A DNA stretch of 64,000 nt from Clostridia bacterium (GTDB lineage: Bacteria > Bacillota > Peptococcia > DRI-13 > UBA5745): positions 62,001 through 126,000 of the forward strand of contig JAHDMJ010000018.1 of NCBI GenBank assembly GCA_018436095.1, given 5' to 3'. Both the position numbers and the translations under genes were made by a program. Below are positions 13,838 to 41,828 of this stretch, one piece after another (within the stretch, counting starts at the first letter, position 1; every line of letters begins with the position of its first letter). Under the pieces are notes generated by a model. That model did no database searches. It had not been told where the DNA came from and worked only from the letters and a program-made list of their open reading frames with translations.

Positions 13838-13903
13838 ATGTGGTGATTGGGGTGGCCCAGTGTAATTGCAATCTCCTTGGCGTAAGGGGCCGGGAGCCGG
13901 CAG

Positions 13904-14060
13904 ACAAAATTGCAGGTTTAAAGTGGATCGTTTCTCTATGATAGTGGGAAATTCTCATGCAACAGTGTTCCTTCCTACGACGAAATACTATATATAGAGT
14001 AAAGATGATATTTAACTTTGTTCAGAAAAAATCCGGACACTTTAAACTTGCAATTTTGGT
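13904..14060. repeat. inverted repeat pair, possible mobile-element end
   Basis: The 22-bp segment at 13904-13925 (ACAAAATTGCAGGTTTAAAG...) is repeated in reverse complement at 14038-14060 with one base inserted and one changed. About 110 bp lie between the arms, with no ORF. The TTGCA/TGCAA-rich arms resemble the multiple short terminal repeats of IS21-type elements, but no transposase is present. Confidence 0.5.
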
Positions 14061-14183
14061 TATTTCCGCTACCCCACGCTGATCCGCCGGCGAGGATAAG
14101 GGGGGATCAAACTATATTGGCCTATCCCTAATGAAAGAAATGGGCATGCCCCCACCGGCAGGGGGTGGTTGGCTTATTGAGGT

Positions 14184-14433
14184 CTCCCCTCTGTGCAAAA
14201 TTGCATGTTTGTCTTCGTCTAGAACCCCTGTCAGAGGAAATAGGAGAACGCTTTAAGCACTTTCAGCAGTTTGGTAGCGAACTCGTTTCTGCCAGGACAC
14301 TAGATATAGTCGAGGCATACCTTTCCACCTGTTTTAGGGGCCTCCATAACTCTAGGGGGTGTCTACAAACCTGCTTTTTTGCTCATCTGGCGCTCTTATT
14401 GGATACAAATCTGCATTTTTGCACAGAGGGGAG
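14184..14433. mobile_element. 250-bp inverted-repeat element, non-coding remnant
   Basis: Bases 14184-14212 and 14405-14433 are inverted repeats matching at 26 of 29 positions (left arm begins CTCCCCTCTGTGCAAAA). A second, weaker copy of the right arm lies in direct orientation at 14361-14389. Several internal repeats at an end are typical of IS21-like elements. The ORF through it (14165-14530) has no family features. Together with the pair at 13904-14060 this looks like the shell of an insertion sequence that has lost its transposase genes, or a MITE-like derivative. Confidence 0.45.
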
Positions 14434-14588
14434 TGCGGATAAAACCTACAGAGCAGATGAAAGCGAATTCCGAGTCGAGCTTGGCATGACAAACCTGATC
14501 ATTGGCATCTTTTCTCGATGTATGGTTTAATTCTGCGGGAACTCAGGGTATAATTGCAGGACTTGGAGAAGGTGGGAGATGTCAACGG

Positions 14589-35102: not shown

Positions 35103-35191
35103 GCAGAAAACATGTCAGCCAATGTCACTTTCCCTTTTGCTATAGTAATGCCAAGCAAACCGGTGAGCTTGAGTATTGAGTGCAGAAAGGA
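35103..35191 (+). promoter_or_regulatory. duplicated promoter/leader, copy 1
   Basis: About 89 bp almost identical to 37183-37274. Includes ATGTCAGCCAATGTCA (a repeat of ATGTCA at 10-bp spacing), then TATAGT as -10, and a shared leader with the ribosome site AGAAAGGA. No -35 at the normal place, so an activator binding the direct repeats is likely. Confidence 0.6.
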
Positions 35192-35200
35192 AGAAAGGGC

Positions 35201-36589
35201 ATGGCAAAACATACGGAGAATTATGGCTTTACTAAGCCGGAACCTAATGATTTCTATGATATTGAGGTGGGGAACAACAATTTGGATGTAATCGATGGGC
35301 TGATTAAAGGAAATGAGGACGCTATCGACGATGTTGCTGGTCCTGGCCGCACCACGGAGACGGTTGTAGGGGCTTATGTTGCGGCTCAGCAGGCAGTTGG
35401 GCAGGTTGGCAGCGTGGATGAAAAGATCGGCTCCGCTGGCGACACCGGCGGCAGCACCACAGCCGGCAGCGTGATGGCTAAGATGAATGCGATACTGCAG
35501 AAGTTTGGATCAGCCTGGACGGATGCTAGGGCGGCTAAATTGGATAATTTGGATGGGACGATAAGCAGCCGGGCTACCCAGGCCAGCCTTAATACGCTGC
35601 AGGGGACGGCTAACACCATCAACGATACTAAGTTAGGTGCTACCAACAACACCGGCGGAAGTTCAACGGCGGGCACCGTGATGGCGAAACTAAATGCCTT
35701 GCTGGTAGCCTTCGGTTTCAGTGGCGCAGGCCAAGCCGGTACACGCAAAGCCGTATTTACGGCAAATGGTAGTTTTACTGTACCGGCGAATGTGACGGCA
35801 ATGAAGATACTGGCGTTTGCAGCAGGGAATGACGGGGAAGATGGTCTTTCGCCTTCTGCTGGACGAGGTACAGAATGGGGTGCAGCAGAAGGAGGCGGAG
35901 GCGGTGGGGGTGGGGGATACGGGGCAGGTGGCGGTAGAGGTGGAGCAGGCGGTGGCCAAGGTGGCGGTAATGACCCAGCTCGGGGCGGTAATGGTGGGGC
36001 TTGGTTCGATGGATATATAAAATGCACACCAAACCAAATAATTACCGTAACCGTGGGTACAGGTAATACACTGCTTTCTGGGGCTGATATAAATTTATCA
36101 CTGCTAAAAGGCGGTGGAGCTGTATCAGATACTGGTACTCCATATACTTTGATTGAAGCTAGTGGCGGCGGAGGCTATGGTGGCGGAGGGGGAGCAGGAG
36201 TTGCTGGATTTCGCCAGGCTGGACACTCAGGAGGCCTTGGAATAGGTGGAGGAGGAGGGGCAGGAGGAGGATCCGGAGATGGTAGTTCAAAAGGCAGCGG
36301 AGTTCCTGGGCAACCAGGTGGCAATGGATCTTCTAGTTCTGCTGCGTGCGGCGGTAGTAGTAGTGCTAAATCTAACTATAGAATGAGTATTGGTGGTTTA
36401 GCTGCTGGTGGTGCTGCTGGTAGTTTTAATCCATGGATTCTTCCCGGCTCTGGACAAAACCCAGCAAATGGGGTATATCCTTTAACTTCAGGGGGAGTAG
36501 GGGGTGCTGGAGGAAATGGAGATAATACACCCGGCAAAGGGGGTAAAGGAGGCAAAGGCGGTCCCGGTATTGTTATATTTGAATGGTAG
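35201..36589 (+). CDS. phage tail fibre/adhesin with glycine-rich C-terminus
   Basis: 462-residue structural protein. The N-terminus (MAKHTENYGFTKPEPNDFYD) is a common tail-fibre head in Clostridia-type phages; two repeats resembling IGSAGDTGGSTTAGSVMAKMNA occur near 75-95 and 145-170; then a domain starting with TANGSFTVPANVTAMKI and a very glycine-rich tip (about 225-460) as in glycine-rich receptor-binding adhesins. Start ATG 35201 with AAAGGAAGAAAGG upstream. Followed in the same unit by two small genes. Its reverse strand gives a long proline-rich ORF that is not real. Confidence 0.82.
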   Translation: MAKHTENYGFTKPEPNDFYDIEVGNNNLDVIDGLIKGNEDAIDDVAGPGRTTETVVGAYVAAQQAVGQVGSVDEKIGSAGDTGGSTTAGSVMAKMNAILQKFGSAWTDARAAKLDNLDGTISSRATQASLNTLQGTANTINDTKLGATNNTGGSSTAGTVMAKLNALLVAFGFSGAGQAGTRKAVFTANGSFTVPANVTAMKILAFAAGNDGEDGLSPSAGRGTEWGAAEGGGGGGGGGYGAGGGRGGAGGGQGGGNDPARGGNGGAWFDGYIKCTPNQIITVTVGTGNTLLSGADINLSLLKGGGAVSDTGTPYTLIEASGGGGYGGGGGAGVAGFRQAGHSGGLGIGGGGGAGGGSGDGSSKGSGVPGQPGGNGSSSSAACGGSSSAKSNYRMSIGGLAAGGAAGSFNPWILPGSGQNPANGVYPLTSGGVGGAGGNGDNTPGKGGKGGKGGPGIVIFEW

Positions 36590-36602
36590 GAGGTAAACAA
36601 TC

Positions 36603-36974
36603 ATGGCAAAAACAAAAACTGAATACATCGGAGGCGCAATTATCACGCAAGAAATAGAGCCACATATAGGTGCCCGTAAATTCGTGCAACTCCAAAAAGA
36701 AGGTGATGATGCCTTTGTTAATCATGTAGGCGACGAGAGTGACGGCCTTTTCGAGCGGGACGACGATGCCATTCTCTGCTTCAACATCGAAAACCATCCG
36801 CAGCGGGATGAAATCGTCAACTACATGCGGTATGACCGGGAGACTGACACCTTTTATATGCCAGCGCAAAAACCAATTCCTCCGCAACCACTATCCGAGG
36901 AAGAGCAGTACCGTTACCAAACCATTATCAATCAGGAGTATTTAATCCTCCTGGAGGAACTAAATAGTCTTTAA
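36603..36974 (+). CDS. small phage protein, tail-associated
   Basis: 123-residue acidic protein (MAKTKTEYIGGAIITQEIE...). The pattern of a short beta-rich N-terminus and a C-terminal charged helix (EEEQYRYQTIINQEYLILLEEL) is like the small proteins encoded between tail fibres and XkdX in phages, perhaps a fibre chaperone. Family not named with certainty. AGGAGG site 6-12 bases before the ATG. Confidence 0.65.
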   Translation: MAKTKTEYIGGAIITQEIEPHIGARKFVQLQKEGDDAFVNHVGDESDGLFERDDDAILCFNIENHPQRDEIVNYMRYDRETDTFYMPAQKPIPPQPLSEEEQYRYQTIINQEYLILLEELNSL

Positions 36975-36991
36975 GAAAGGGGGAGGCCACT

Positions 36992-37183
36992 ATGGCAAGT
37001 CAAGCTTCAAGGAATAACAAATTACTCTATACTTCTTTATTTAAGATCATCGAATCTGGGGATTACGACAAGGAGGATATGCGTCACCGGGTAGACATAT
37101 TCTGCTTCGGTGGCCGACTCGATAACGAGCAATATCAGAAACTGACTGGCATGATGGACGATCAGCCAGCAAGAGAGGAATAG
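36992..37183 (+). CDS. XkdX-like small phage protein
   Basis: 63 residues. The segment SLFKIIESGDYDKEDMRHRVD...GRLDNEQYQKLTG has the order of XkdX proteins, which lie next to tail-fibre genes of PBSX-like phages; their function is unknown. AAAGGGGGAGG site upstream. Confidence 0.6.
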   Translation: MASQASRNNKLLYTSLFKIIESGDYDKEDMRHRVDIFCFGGRLDNEQYQKLTGMMDDQPAREE

Positions 37184-37274
37184 CAGAACAAAACATGTCA
37201 ACCAATGTCACTTTCCCTTTTGCTATAATAGTGCCAAGCAAACCGGTAAGCTTGAGTATTCATAGCAGAAAGGA
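37183..37274 (+). promoter_or_regulatory. duplicated promoter/leader, copy 2
   Basis: Matches 35103-35191 with few changes. Perfect -10 TATAAT at 37224-37229, ATGTCA repeats at 37195 and 37205, and the ribosome site AGAAAGGAAAG for the next gene. Confidence 0.65.
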
Positions 37275-37283
37275 AAGTGACAT

Positions 37284-38168
37284 ATGCCAATCGTAAATGG
37301 ATTGTTTTATTCAGGATGGGGAGGTCCCACTACTGGTTTAGCGTCAGACCTGCTTTCAGGCAAAACCCTCAATAATGAGGACGGCGATAGCGTAATTGGT
37401 ACCATGCCCAACAATGGAGCCGTGGGAGGTACGATTACTCAGCAGGCCGGGAAAGTGATCGTTCCAGCCGGCTACACTTCCGGCGGTCAGGTGGAGGCGA
37501 ATATATCCGGGCTGGGGGCCAGCAACATCAAAAGCGGCGCCAACGTCGGCGGCGTAGCCGGCACCTTTACCGCCGATGCTAATGCGGTGGCCGGGGATAT
37601 CCTGACCACGAAGACAGCTTACGTCAATGGTGCGAAAGTAACCGGCGCCATGGCCAACAGGGGTGCTATTACGCAGACGATTAGCACCCAAGGAGGGCAG
37701 TATACCGTGCCAGCAGGTTATCACAATGGCAGCGGAAAGGTGACGGCCAGTTTTGCTAATTTGATAGCGGGCAATGTGCGGAAGGGTGTGAATATTGGTG
37801 GGGTGGTAGGTAATTTTGCCGGAAATTACGCTACTGGAACATATGCTGTAACTAGTACTGGTACGTATCCGAACTGGGCGTTTACATTTCCAACAGATAT
37901 GAATGTTGGCTTTCCCGTAAAATTTGCCTTTATGTGGCTACCGGAATCCCGGCAGATCATTTGGTTTTCTAATCCAGGAATTAGATTTTTTACAACAAAT
38001 AATGTAGTTTGTGCCTTCACTCCTTTTGCATATGGGACAACCACCCCTTCGTGGAAAGTGATTCTTTCAGGAACAGTGCCATTCACCAGTACGGGAATAG
38101 GAGCCTTTGTAGATGAGCCATACGGAGCGCAAATGAATGGAACATATAATTATATGGCTTTCGGATAA
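37284..38168 (+). CDS. phage tail fibre-like protein with NI..G repeats
   Basis: 294-residue protein. N-terminal two thirds is built of tail-fibre repeats: ASDLLSGKTLNNEDGDSVIGTM, TITQQAGKVIVPAGYTSGG, SNIKSGANVGGVAGTF, ILTTKTAYVNGAKVTGAM, and a second round ending NVRKGVNIGGVVGNF. The C-terminal third (about 185-294) is a distinct beta-rich domain and probably the receptor-binding tip. It has its own copy of the module promoter, so it may be an alternative fibre to the protein at 35201. Confidence 0.8.
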   Translation: MPIVNGLFYSGWGGPTTGLASDLLSGKTLNNEDGDSVIGTMPNNGAVGGTITQQAGKVIVPAGYTSGGQVEANISGLGASNIKSGANVGGVAGTFTADANAVAGDILTTKTAYVNGAKVTGAMANRGAITQTISTQGGQYTVPAGYHNGSGKVTASFANLIAGNVRKGVNIGGVVGNFAGNYATGTYAVTSTGTYPNWAFTFPTDMNVGFPVKFAFMWLPESRQIIWFSNPGIRFFTTNNVVCAFTPFAYGTTTPSWKVILSGTVPFTSTGIGAFVDEPYGAQMNGTYNYMAFG

Positions 38169-38188
38169 ATCCAGAGGAGGCAAAACAT

Positions 38189-38278
38189 ATGGCCATCATT
38201 AACACTCCGCTGGGTGGCAGTGACGGTGAGACAAGCAGCAAGATCGGCTCCACTAGCGACACTGGTGGTAGTATCTAA
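38189..38278 (+). pseudogene. 29-codon tail-fibre fragment
   Basis: ATG with AGAGGAGG upstream opens a 29-residue frame ending SSKIGSTSDTGGSI, which repeats the KIGSAGDTGGS segment inside the fibre at 35201. It looks like the 5' end of a third fibre gene that has lost the rest. A hairpin terminator follows. Confidence 0.45.
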
Positions 38279-38298
38279 AATAAATATCAACACCCATT

Positions 38299-38336
38299 AC
38301 AAGGCAGGATACCTAACGGTCCTGCCTTGTTGCTGT
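38299..38336 (+). terminator. hairpin between fibre and lysis genes
   Basis: Perfect ACAAGGCAGGA/TCCTGCCTTGT stem with a 10-base loop; T-run weak. Confidence 0.7.
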
Positions 38337-38363
38337 AATTTAATAATGAGAGGCGGTCGAGAC

Positions 38364-38819
38364 ATGGACACAATCAAAAGCATCAAAATCGTAGTAACGG
38401 CAATAGGAACCGCTATTGCGGCGCAGTTGGGCATTTTAGCCCTGCCGGTTTTTACGCTGTTAGGGCTGAATATCGCTGATTATTTTACGGCGATATTGGC
38501 AGCGAAGAGCCGGGGCGAAAAGGTTAGTTCTGGCAAAGGCATTAAGGGGATCATCAAAAAGTTAGGTATGTACATCCTGGTGTGCCTGGGTGGCGTAGTC
38601 GATATTCTCCTGGCCCATGGTGGGGATAGTATTGGTCTTGTCTTGCCAGGATCATGGATATTTGCATCATTAGTGGCAGTATGGTTAATCTGCAACGAGC
38701 TGATCAGCATACTGGAAAACCTTATTGACCTTGGCACACCTATCCCGCCATTTTTGATGCCATTGGCCCGAAAAATTAAGGATACCATCGAAGCAAAGGG
38801 AGGGTCTAGTAATGGGTAA
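38364..38819 (+). CDS. phage holin
   Basis: Toxin secretion/phage lysis holin family, 151 residues. Helices near 10-40, 66-85 and 92-112, with the family pieces FTLLGLNIADYFTAILAAK and EKVSSGKGIKGIIKKLGMYIL, and a C-terminal charged tail. It makes membrane lesions that release the endolysin. ATG 38364 is chosen with AGAGGCGG upstream; an ATG six codons earlier is possible. Overlaps the endolysin start by 8 bases. Confidence 0.88.
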   Translation: MDTIKSIKIVVTAIGTAIAAQLGILALPVFTLLGLNIADYFTAILAAKSRGEKVSSGKGIKGIIKKLGMYILVCLGGVVDILLAHGGDSIGLVLPGSWIFASLVAVWLICNELISILENLIDLGTPIPPFLMPLARKIKDTIEAKGGSSNG

Positions 38820-39480
38820 AGCAGACATTGTCTTTTATAGTCTGGCCAAACTGGGGGCCAGCTACAAGATTATGGCAAATATAACTTTAGGCGAATTGGC
38901 CAGCAAAGGCTCGGACGGCTCTGAGCCTACGCCGGTGGACATGGTGCTTGCTGCTAAAATCCAGCAAATGCGTGACCTGCTGGGCAAACCTGTGCATATT
39001 AATTCTGTCTATCGGACGGTAAAGCATAATGCATCCGTGGGCGGTGTAGCCGGCAGCTATCACACGCAAGGCATGGCAGCGGATATTTGGTTCGGTGACA
39101 CATTTGCTGACAGGATCCCGGACGAGGAGGCCGCCCAGTGCGCCGAATATGTCGGCTTTGGTGGCATTGGATTGTACCCAGGCCGTATCCATGTCGATAC
39201 CCGGCCGGGTCGGTACCGTTACCGCAAACCTGGCAAGGACTATATCACCGTGGCCGGTTTCCCGGGATATGCACTGCCGGTAGCGCCGGAACCGGAGCCT
39301 GTCGTTGATCCGGCGACGGCAGAATCTGTGCCGGTGGAGTTGCTTTGCCGTTGTGGGGGCTTGATCGCTACCGTCGAGGGGATAAGGCTTGACGGCAGTA
39401 TCTATGCACCTGTGCGGCAGCTTTGCGAAAGCCTAGGCCATACGGTGGAGTGGACAGGGGACAAGGTGATAGTAAAATAG
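38812..39480 (+). CDS. phage endolysin: M15-type peptidase with copper-amine-oxidase-like domain
   Basis: 222 residues. The first 145 form a peptidase M15 (Hedgehog/DD-peptidase fold): SVYRTVKHN, then SYHTQGMAADIWFGD with the zinc His and Asp, and IHVDTRPG with the last His. After a short Pro/Glu linker, residues 165-222 match a copper amine oxidase N-terminal-like domain (DGSIYAPVRQLCESLGHTVEW), which in Bacillota often binds the wall. Cuts peptidoglycan cross-links during lysis. No signal peptide, consistent with holin-dependent export. Confidence 0.85.
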   Translation: MGKADIVFYSLAKLGASYKIMANITLGELASKGSDGSEPTPVDMVLAAKIQQMRDLLGKPVHINSVYRTVKHNASVGGVAGSYHTQGMAADIWFGDTFADRIPDEEAAQCAEYVGFGGIGLYPGRIHVDTRPGRYRYRKPGKDYITVAGFPGYALPVAPEPEPVVDPATAESVPVELLCRCGGLIATVEGIRLDGSIYAPVRQLCESLGHTVEWTGDKVIVK

Positions 39481-39825: not shown

Positions 39826-39945
39826 CTTATTGACCGACGGAGCGGTGCCGTGTTAGAACTATGACCATAAAAGCCATAGGAAAACCCCTAAATATCTTCA
39901 AAAATCTTTCAGAATGGGTTTAAAAGTGGGTTATTCACAAAAACG

Positions 39946-39982
39946 AAACGCCGCCAGAATCTATATCTGACGACGTTTTTTA
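39946..39982 (+). terminator. hairpin before the ssrA-derived repeats
   Basis: AAACGCCGCCAGA/TCTGACGACGTTTTTT, imperfect stem with T-run. Confidence 0.6.
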
Positions 39983-39986
39983 ACAA

Positions 39987-40170
39987 TGGAGATGAGGGGA
40001 GTCGCGCCGCTCACCGGACCTGTTGATGCATTTCTTTGTAGTTCGCTATCACACCGGCCCATCGAAAAACGCCCCGCCGGGGCCTTTTTCTCGGGCGTTC
40101 GACTCCCCTTTTCTATATCGCTACATCAAAAAAACCACCTTGATCGTCTCAAAGTGGTTTTTTAATGTAG
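39987..40170. repeat. tandem repeat copy 1 beginning with ssrA 3'-end sequence
   Basis: 184-bp unit, nearly identical to 40171-40356. It starts TGGAGATGAGGGGAGTCG, the reverse complement of the last 18 bases of mature tmRNA, then diverges. It contains a hairpin AACGCCCC...GGGGC, an inverted and degenerate ssrA-end copy (GTTCGACTCCCC...CTACAT) and the ACCACCTTGA hairpin. Resembles an attachment-site scar left by integration at ssrA. Confidence 0.7.
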
Positions 40171-40356
40171 TGGAGATGAGGGGAGTCGCGCCGCTCACCG
40201 GATCTGATGATGCATTTCTTTGTAGTTCGCTATCACGCCGGCCCATCGAAAAACGCCCCACCGGGGCCTTTTTCTCGGGCGTTCGACTCCCCTTTTCTAT
40301 ATCGCTACATCAAAAAAACCACCTTGATCGTCTCAAAGTGGTTTTTTTTAATGTAG
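40171..40356. repeat. tandem repeat copy 2 adjoining ssrA
   Basis: 186-bp copy of the preceding unit; differs by a few substitutions and two extra T in the hairpin tail. The intact ssrA 3' end begins at its right border. The ACCACCTTGA hairpin at 40312-40350, read on the minus strand, is the probable ssrA terminator. Confidence 0.75.
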
Positions 40357-40699
40357 TGGAGATGAGGGGAGTCGAACCCCTGTCCGAAAGAATGACCACG
40401 CAGGCATCTACGAGCGTAGTTTGTGCTTTAATTTCGCCCTGACTGCTCCCACAAACAGGATCAGGCAACGCTATTTCCGTTAATTTCCCTTGAACTTACG
40501 GAAAGCTGGGTCCAAGGTAGCCTGCTAAATGTCTCCCCATTCCTCACCGCAGGCACAGAGGGTGGGGAGTCAACTGCAATTAAGCAGCTAAAGCGTAATT
40601 ATTGTTTGCAATTAAGCGTGTGTACCTTTTTAACGGGCTGGCACCAACCCGGCTCGCTTCCCACGCCACCACTTCCCCCGTCGAAACCAGTACATCCCC
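40357..40699 (-). ncRNA. ssrA: tmRNA
   Basis: Rescues stalled ribosomes together with SmpB. On the minus strand the 5' end GGGGATGTACTGGTTTCGAC pairs with the 3' end CATCTCC to form the acceptor stem (one G-U); the T-arm is GGGGTTCGACTCCCC. The mRNA-like part starts with the resume codon GCA at 40609 and encodes ANNNYALAA, stop at 40580-40582. CCA is not encoded after the discriminator A at 40357. The 3' end is duplicated in the tandem repeats downstream. About 213 bp separate it from smpB. Confidence 0.96.
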
Positions 40700-40912: not shown

Positions 40913-41374
40913 TTACTCCCTGCCTCTGAAAGCCCGTTCCATTTCCCGCTTGGCATCCTTGGTAGCGGCGGCGTCCCGCTTGTCGTAGAGTTTTTTGCCC
41001 TTGCATAAGGCCAACTCCACCTTCACCTTGCCGCGGGTAAAGTAAAGTTTAAGGGGAATCAGGGTTAATCCTTCCTGTTTGACCTGGCCAAAGAGTTTCA
41101 TGATTTCCCGTTTGTGCATCAGAAGCTTCCGTTGCCGCAGGGGGTCCACATTGTAACGGTTGCCTTGCTCATAGGGGCTGATATGTACGCTTTCCAGGTA
41201 CATCTGCCCATCTTTGACCTGAGCATAGCTGTCCTTGAGGTTGACTTTCCCCGCCCGCAATGATTTGACTTCTGTGCCGGTGAGGGCGATGCCGGCCTCA
41301 TAAGTATCAAGTACAAAATAATCATGCCGGGCCTTGCGGTTTTCGGCAATGACTTTCATTTTTTCTTCCGCCAT
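40913..41374 (-). CDS. smpB: SsrA-binding protein SmpB
   Basis: RNA-binding partner of tmRNA in trans-translation. 153 residues, OB-fold: [30 protein letters not shown], and the C-terminal tail [10 protein letters not shown]...KRE that enters the ribosome. The ATG at 41374 is used (AAGGAAAG upstream); a longer start at 41404 would extend beyond the family start. Same strand as and upstream of ssrA, a common pairing. Confidence 0.96.
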
Positions 41375-41594
41375 ACCGATCACTTTCCTTTCGCCGGGCG
41401 GCAATATATTGGCCAGAGTATGACCTGGAGTGTAATTATATCACATTCGAGGCGGGCCGCAAAATTAATTTTATTGTGCAGACTGAATGGCTGCCCTGGC
41501 TATCCCAGGCTTTCGCTGGCTGTCCGGGTTTTCCCTAGCTGTCTGGATCCTTGACTAATTGCCAGGGACTCGATTAGCCGGCAGGCTCGACTGA

Positions 41595-41828
41595 TCACAG
41601 AGCCTGGGCTGCAGTCAAGGTTTTGGCTGACCGTCGTAGCCAATTGTCGTAACCGACTACCATTGATGTCATCCGCAGCGCCCCAATCCCCAGCGCCCCA
41701 ATCCCCAGCGCCCCAATCCCCAGCGCCTCAATCCCCAGCGCCTCAATCCCCAGCGCCTCAATCCCCAGCGCCTCAATCCGCGTCAGGCGGTTTCCCTTGA
41801 TCCCGATTTGACCTATCCGGCTATGCAT
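41595..41828 (-). CDS. candidate 77-residue protein with GIEAL/GIGAL pentapeptide repeats
   Basis: ORF whose ATG overlaps the end of rnz by 8 bases. Its middle consists of seven 5-residue repeats (GIEAL or GIGAL), encoded by the 15-bp tandem repeat at 41675-41779. A ribosome site AAGG lies about 12 bases before the ATG. It is open through the whole repeat, which must be so for any 15-bp repeat without a stop, so coding is uncertain. Confidence 0.3.
   Translation of the reverse strand: MHSRIGQIGIKGNRLTRIEALGIEALGIEALGIEALGIGALGIGALGIGALRMTSMVVGYDNWLRRSAKTLTAAQAL
41675..41779. repeat. 15-bp minisatellite, seven units
   Basis: Seven head-to-tail copies of CCAGCGCC(C/T)CAATCC. The first three have C and the last four T at the variable place, indicating stepwise expansion. 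On the minus strand each unit carries GGGG. Confidence 0.92.

Follow-up and report, generated by a model that had tools for sequence, protein, structure and literature searches.

The 3' end of the ssrA (tmRNA) gene in this Clostridia genome is followed by two short tandem units, which we interpret, with slightly more confidence than doubt, as copies of a non-coding, non-autonomous mobile element specialised for tRNA and tmRNA 3' ends that would act as a folded DNA strand, with its enzyme supplied in trans. Units of this kind are known behind at least 26 kinds of tRNA/tmRNA genes in Bacillota, and on comparison of the sequences the hairpin stem of the element is shown to match whichever tRNA sits upstream.

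Two tandem units downstream of ssrA

The window (the whole 64,000-nucleotide stretch of DNA that was analysed) contains an intact ssrA gene, which belongs to the host (Table 1). The last 18 bases of the tmRNA (TGGAGATGAGGGGAGTCG on the forward strand) are present in three exact copies with successive spacings of 184 and 186, and no further match with up to three mismatches is found elsewhere in the window (chance expectation 0.02). The two units are 98% identical over a 177-base stretch, and this identity together with the exact tails rules out a chance origin of the repeats. The tail search, ARAGORN and Rfam agree with the initial annotation, which had described two units of 184 and 186 bp carrying 18-base tmRNA tails beside an intact ssrA end. 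The inverted copy that it had noticed inside each unit, at 40096-40108 and at 40280-40292, is an exact complement of the T-loop and the 3' strand of the T-stem of the tmRNA over GTTCGACTCCCC, and is divergent on either side.

The terminator-like hairpin of the ssrA-proximal unit could, judging by its sequence, be bidirectional. The sequence past the last ssrA tail (window 39915-40015) is ~80% similar to the native sequence downstream of tRNA-Ala(ggc) in the sister genome G004 (L194), a similarity that may hint at exchange between the Ala and tmRNA loci. On the other side of ssrA, a mechanical ORF with GIEALGIEALGIGAL amino-acid repeats (window 41595-41828) adjoins the presumed smpB (40913-41404), which is labelled from its position and sequence.

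Table 1. Coordinates of ssrA, its two downstream units and neighbouring features in the window
Feature	Position	Strand	Basis or remark
ssrA (tmRNA, tag ANNNYALAA), intact host gene	40356..40699	-	ARAGORN; Rfam RF00023 40354-40699, 204 bits
Tail copy 1, genuine ssrA 3' end, T-loop C to discriminator	40357..40374	-	
Tail copy 2	40171..40188	-	
Tail copy 3	39987..40004	-	
ssrA-proximal unit, 186 bp: spacer/terminator, inverted arm, core, tail copy 2	40171..40356	-	model R1 (E 9.6e-50, by construction)
Distal unit, 184 bp, 98% identical to proximal, tail copy 3 at its end	39987..40170	-	
Terminator-like hairpin, proximal unit	40313..40347	.	A-run and T-run on both sides
Terminator-like hairpin, distal unit	40129..40163	.	
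Inverted T-arm arm (P1 5' strand), proximal unit	40280-40292	-	GGGGAGTCGAAC on - strand
Inverted T-arm arm (P1 5' strand), distal unit	40096-40108	-	
P2 hairpin of core, proximal unit	40241..40280	-	approximate ends
P2 hairpin of core, distal unit	40057..40096	-	approximate ends
Conserved junction, proximal unit	40226..40241	-	CGGCGTGATAGCGAA
Conserved junction, distal unit	40042..40057	-	CGGTGTGATAGCGAA
Conserved right end preceding tail copy 2	40189..40201	-	CCGGTGAGCGGCG
Conserved right end preceding tail copy 3	40005..40017	-	CCGGTGAGCGGCG
Terminator-like hairpin past the last tail	39945..39981	.	resembles native tRNA-Ala(ggc) downstream in G004
Phage remnant (holin, endolysin, tail-type proteins)	35180..39480	+	judged outside the element

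Anatomy of the unit and its match to the host gene

Read along the tRNA strand, a unit comprises in order a tail, a spacer, an inverted arm (NNNNTYGAAC), hairpin P2, CGGCGTGATAGYGA, hairpin P3, GARCGGMG and a second tail. The tail extends from the T-loop C to the discriminator, or to CCA where this is encoded, and the host tRNA is left intact. The conserved core (CGGCGTGATAGCGA...GCGGMG) has two hairpins joined by CGGCGTGATAGCGA, namely P2, which is GGGCGG...CCGCCC or a compensated version of it, and P3, which is of variable length. Both are enclosed by a closing stem, P1, whose 3' strand is the tail copy and whose 5' strand is an inverted copy, usually of 7-20 bases, of the T-arm of the same tRNA. 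P1 typically starts 42-70 bases past the tRNA (just 17-28 bases in about a quarter of the units), and the spacer of most units contains a terminator-like hairpin. No genes were found inside any unit examined (lengths about 130-260 bp).

The core is supported by covariation. In 24 aligned cores 94.6% of the cells pair, and there are 65 double-change cells as against 14.5 in shuffled alignments, with none of 500 shuffles reaching any of five measures. The covariation of P2 and P3 is independent of tRNA identity, and in the window units two adjacent P2 pairs are switched from G-C to C-G. Whole cores with P1 fold as single-stranded DNA (z -3.2 to -5.1); RNA folding of partial cores lacking P1 is not significant, and hence it appears that P1 matters. 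By a heuristic count, GNA triloops cap the short P3 hairpins in 30 of 86 cases, compared with about 8 GNRA tetraloops, and the triloop caps include GCGAAGC, a mini-hairpin known for its high stability in DNA (PMC4686876). The triloops and the modelled DNA folds suggest that the core takes its form as folded DNA rather than RNA. A known RNA family was rejected, as Rfam gave no match over the core above gathering score and only chance-level matches at lax thresholds.

The good folding of short hairpin elements as single-stranded DNA would also suit REP-like hairpins mobilised by a Y1 (RAYT/IS200-type) transposase. We give this reading almost no credence, since the carrier genomes G000 (the genome of the window), G160, G239, G332 and G388 yielded no Y1 transposase match, whereas the unit-free genomes G215 and G328 have several. 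MITEs and REP/BIME repeats are short, non-coding, foldable and multicopy, as are the units, but the units differ from them in that their termini copy the host tRNA, that a parental transposase is lacking and that they are located strictly at tRNAs. A gene-bearing relative of the units with fixed terminal inverted repeats was not seen, and the outer stem varies with the host tRNA.

We then measured how closely P1 and the tails follow the upstream gene, using 91 Bacillota units with a recognisable upstream tRNA or tmRNA (26 kinds); a further 16 matches lacking a recognisable upstream tRNA were excluded. P1 forms a mean of 9.27 paired bases, and up to 20, with the unit's own tail. Permuted tails give a mean of 4.31, and none of 2000 permutations exceeds 5.42. 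Of the 91 units, 57 have a right tail identical to that of the host from end to end, and in 65 the identity is at least 90%; identity to the tails of other tRNAs is 0.59 on average.

Distribution, gain and loss of units

In the genome of the window, further non-coding units of this build, ~150-215 bp long, were found: one follows tRNA-Ala(ggc), two of 191 bp lie between tRNA-His and tRNA-Gln, and others follow tRNA-Leu(caa) and tRNA-Gly(ccc); some other tRNAs have decayed copies. In each case the direct repeat is the tail of that particular tRNA, to whose T-arm the inverted arm is complementary. Simple tandem duplication of the ssrA end, which the initial annotation had offered as its alternative, is insufficient as it fails to account for a core that is also found at other tRNAs. 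The decayed units (L043, L044, L030) are interrupted or bordered by short palindromic repeats, GCACAAAAATCGAAGTTGTG and TGCAAAAATGCAGGTTTGTATCC, and matches related to these repeats are found in the window near 14 kb (about 13900-14500).

When relatives were screened with a covariance model built from five units, 9 of 40 genomes proved to have units. These lie at tmRNA, His, Ser, Ala, Met, Leu and Val genes, stacked up to three in a row. Scanning a species-genome collection for an exact motif gave matches in Bacillota (Desulfosporosinus isolates, Peptococcaceae and gut Clostridia), which among the matches listed (at least 80 loci) lie mostly directly 3' of a tRNA or tmRNA. Matches in other phyla have no upstream tRNA and are expected by chance for a 17-base pattern. 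Units were found in 5 of 299 genomes of a phylum-wide sample. In one order 25 of 73 genomes have them, and one genus includes both carriers and non-carriers; the genome sample includes many MAGs. These counts underestimate unit abundance because most of the units used to train the model carry the motif, other core types share the arrays and the motif loci alone number at least 80.

Arrays behind tRNA-Leu and tRNA-Val (L121 5694-6330 and 6688-6885; L094 2994-3430) mix core types, for example ATATGGAGCC...GGGTAGGTCGC. The differing cores retain the host tails and the inverted T-arm, and on sequence grounds they are possibly further families of like kind. In L109 (3219-3530, - strand) an inverted-repeat element of ~190 bp with AAAGGATTCGACAGACAATAA ends sits in the P2 loop of one unit.

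Occupied and empty sites can be compared between sister genomes. The tRNA-Leu(gag) site is empty in G000, where the native terminator directly follows the tail. In G004 this site is occupied by two units, and a native terminator of clear homology comes after the last tail. Conversely, the tRNA-Ala(ggc) site is empty in G004 and has one unit in G000, and tRNA-His has two units in G000 and one in G004. Wherever an empty sister site was compared, the native downstream sequence resumes right past the last tail.

Within one genome, P2 segments at different tRNAs can reach an identity of 94% or more. Within a genus, P2 similarity is 0.80 for the same tRNA and 0.74 for different tRNAs; between genera the values are 0.74 and 0.66, so that on these sequences clustering by tRNA versus by genome appears mixed. 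A long P3 is common to the Leu(gag) and Gly(tcc) units of G374, which differ in their host-matched P1 stems; in G355, the units at Ser(tga) and Ser(cga) have spacer and core in common, each with the tails of its own tRNA. Because these units share P3 or core and yet keep host-specific P1 stems or tails, it appears that a unit can move from one tRNA to another and have its P1 re-specified.

Gain and loss could in part reflect homologous recombination between tails together with vertical inheritance, the units at the same tRNA within a genus being the most alike. An alternative holds that the units are host-maintained structural elements: vertically inherited hairpins behind tRNA genes, with for instance insulating, terminating or 3' processing roles, amplified by tandem duplication and gene conversion. 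The terminator-like hairpins of most units, the tandem copies and the 0.80 similarity just described are consistent with such maintenance. We nevertheless regard it as improbable, given the patchy presence within genera, the precise empty sites that already own native terminators and the near-identical cores at different tRNAs.

Phage genes, recombinases and the proposed mechanism

Phages and islands classically integrate at the 3' ends of tRNA or tmRNA genes, where repeats of the tail are usually read as integrase scars. The initial annotation accordingly proposed serial integration and imprecise loss beside the phage module, with units made of att arms being left at ssrA by phages or islands. 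Direct tail repeats at the ssrA 3' end are indeed the classic integrase mark, a phage remnant adjoins the units, and tandem islands in the ssrA T-loop have been described (PMC3146451). However, one build is found at 26 tRNA/tmRNA kinds, gene-free in every unit examined and mostly without phage genes alongside, and the same repeats are present in relatives lacking phage genes, a pattern that the initial annotation had itself set against its proposal. Furthermore, three pattern scans of IMG/VR did not find the units, the sole match being on a high-GC contig with no tRNA and within a predicted gene, and blastn did not find them in 50,697 GenBank phage records or 72,556 plasmid records (PLSDB). 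A covarying core that is common to the units and absent from the phage, viral and plasmid collections argues against a phage origin.

The adjacent phage module points to a different site. Its relatives lie beside the tRNA-Leu(gag) units in G004 (L158 17919-19169), and because a second copy in the genome of the window (L156 1-1062) runs into an apparent tRNA-Leu 3' half and an integrase fragment, its attachment site is probably the tRNA-Leu anticodon arm. The window also lacks a far-end copy of the tail. The initial annotation had suggested looking for tyrosine integrases whose elements end in the unit sequence; the five tyrosine-recombinase matches (PF00589) in the genome of the window all lie away from units. 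In the other carriers searched, an integrase within 5 kb of a unit was found in two cases among the matches listed, G374 and G239. In the latter (L182 1725-7000) the stretch with the integrase terminates at the 3' part of a truncated tRNA-Ser, which still has a unit and a partial second unit, an arrangement that looks like a later island insertion. A tyrosine recombinase close upstream in L102 was set aside, as it abuts a tRNA-Lys end and probably belongs to a separate element.

On this evidence we rejected phage att remnants, a reading that we consider very improbable. The insertion part of the earlier interpretation is retained, given the exact placement at the ssrA 3' end, the attachment-style tail duplications and the clean empty sister sites at other tRNAs; the part that made the units phage debris is not.

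As no integrase lies near the units of G000 and no units are present in the viral, phage and plasmid collections, the putative enzyme is taken to act in trans. In the model that we favour, of an element mobilised as a folded strand, the working form would be a folded single DNA strand with a P1-P2-P3 junction, in which the P1 stem would serve as a half site resembling a T-arm. The unit would be joined to a T-arm by a trans-acting recombinase or some other enzyme of strand transfer, and units would be removed by recombination between tails. The P1 arm would be re-made from the sequence of the new tRNA, either at insertion or afterwards.

Conservative recombination of the attC or CTXphi type could, by analogy, explain the arrays, the precise empty sites and the hairpin. 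It would, however, be expected to leave a donor tail on one side, and both tails usually match the host, which is a point against our preferred explanation; the tail may thus be duplicated at insertion or corrected later. Target-duplicating, pairing-guided insertion better explains both tails and an inverted arm that follows the new host. The main rival to a trans-acting folded-strand element is consequently a pairing-guided copy-in, in which the inverted arm of an RNA or single-stranded DNA intermediate guides it to a T-arm, the tail is duplicated and the arm is copied or corrected from the target, in a retro-element-like or nuclease-initiated process. The two tails of most units agree with the host, much as after a target-site duplication, and the complementarity of the inverted arm to the target T-arm takes in GTTC. 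Differences in the arm noted by eye include G-T wobbles (L151, L068, L094), and the G355 Ser units with common spacer and core but their own tails would also fit. Against this, a terminator-like hairpin lies between tRNA and core in most units, which is unfavourable to an RNA driven from the tRNA, neither a reverse transcriptase nor a guide nuclease was seen next to units, and the partial-core RNA folds are not significant. We judge such a copy-in unlikely, though it carries appreciable weight. An IS110/bridge-RNA scheme was dropped by reasoning only, as the two arms of a unit, inverted and direct, are copies of one target half rather than of a left and a right half.

The nearest described analogue is the family of Dehalococcoides ssrA genomic islands (DsiB serine recombinase), which insert in the ssrA T-loop, have ~20-bp direct repeats of the tail and form tandem arrays, but are gene-bearing, many with a serine-recombinase module, and occur at ssrA only (PMC3146451). 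The units share with these islands the T-loop insertion, the tail repeats and the tandem stacking behind ssrA, and differ in being short and gene-free, with a host-matched inverted arm and 26 tRNA/tmRNA kinds as hosts. Integron cassettes have foldable attC sites with complementary outer strands and RYYYAAC/GTTRRRY boxes, in an array anchored at a fixed site. Tandem units each ending in a foldable site resemble such arrays, but integrons were rejected because the boxes differ: the right end of a unit is GCGGMGC followed by the tRNA tail, without attC R/L boxes. No integron integrase or cassette genes were seen, and the anchor is a tRNA which the outer stem copies. Tycheposons and other tRNA-targeted islands likewise duplicate the tRNA 3' end on insertion, but unlike the units they are gene-bearing and have a tyrosine recombinase. 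In the phage-carried attP(+) of CTXphi, a folded single strand imitates the chromosomal dif site and is recombined by an enzyme in trans. This folded hairpin is used by XerC/XerD (PMC4246890). The strand proposed here would similarly mimic a recombination site for an enzyme in trans, with tRNA rather than dif as its target and no phage link.

We found no description of these units in the open-access literature, an absence that is weak evidence. It is possible, although we hold this only tentatively, that they form a categorically new class of minimal mobile element: gene-free, ~150-215 bp in length, inserted at the T-loop, with an arm copied from the host, re-targeting itself without any change of protein, and forming tRNA-anchored cassette arrays through a folded single strand.

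Collectively, a signature that looks like an integrase scar here arises from a separate gene-free element, in several Bacillota lineages, with a stem fitted to each tRNA. The units would provide a naturally occurring example in which a short DNA element changes its target specificity by copying sequence, and they could mislead programs that call island and prophage boundaries. They also offer a testable route to an unknown recombination activity, and since Desulfosporosinus isolates carry units, cultures exist for such experiments.
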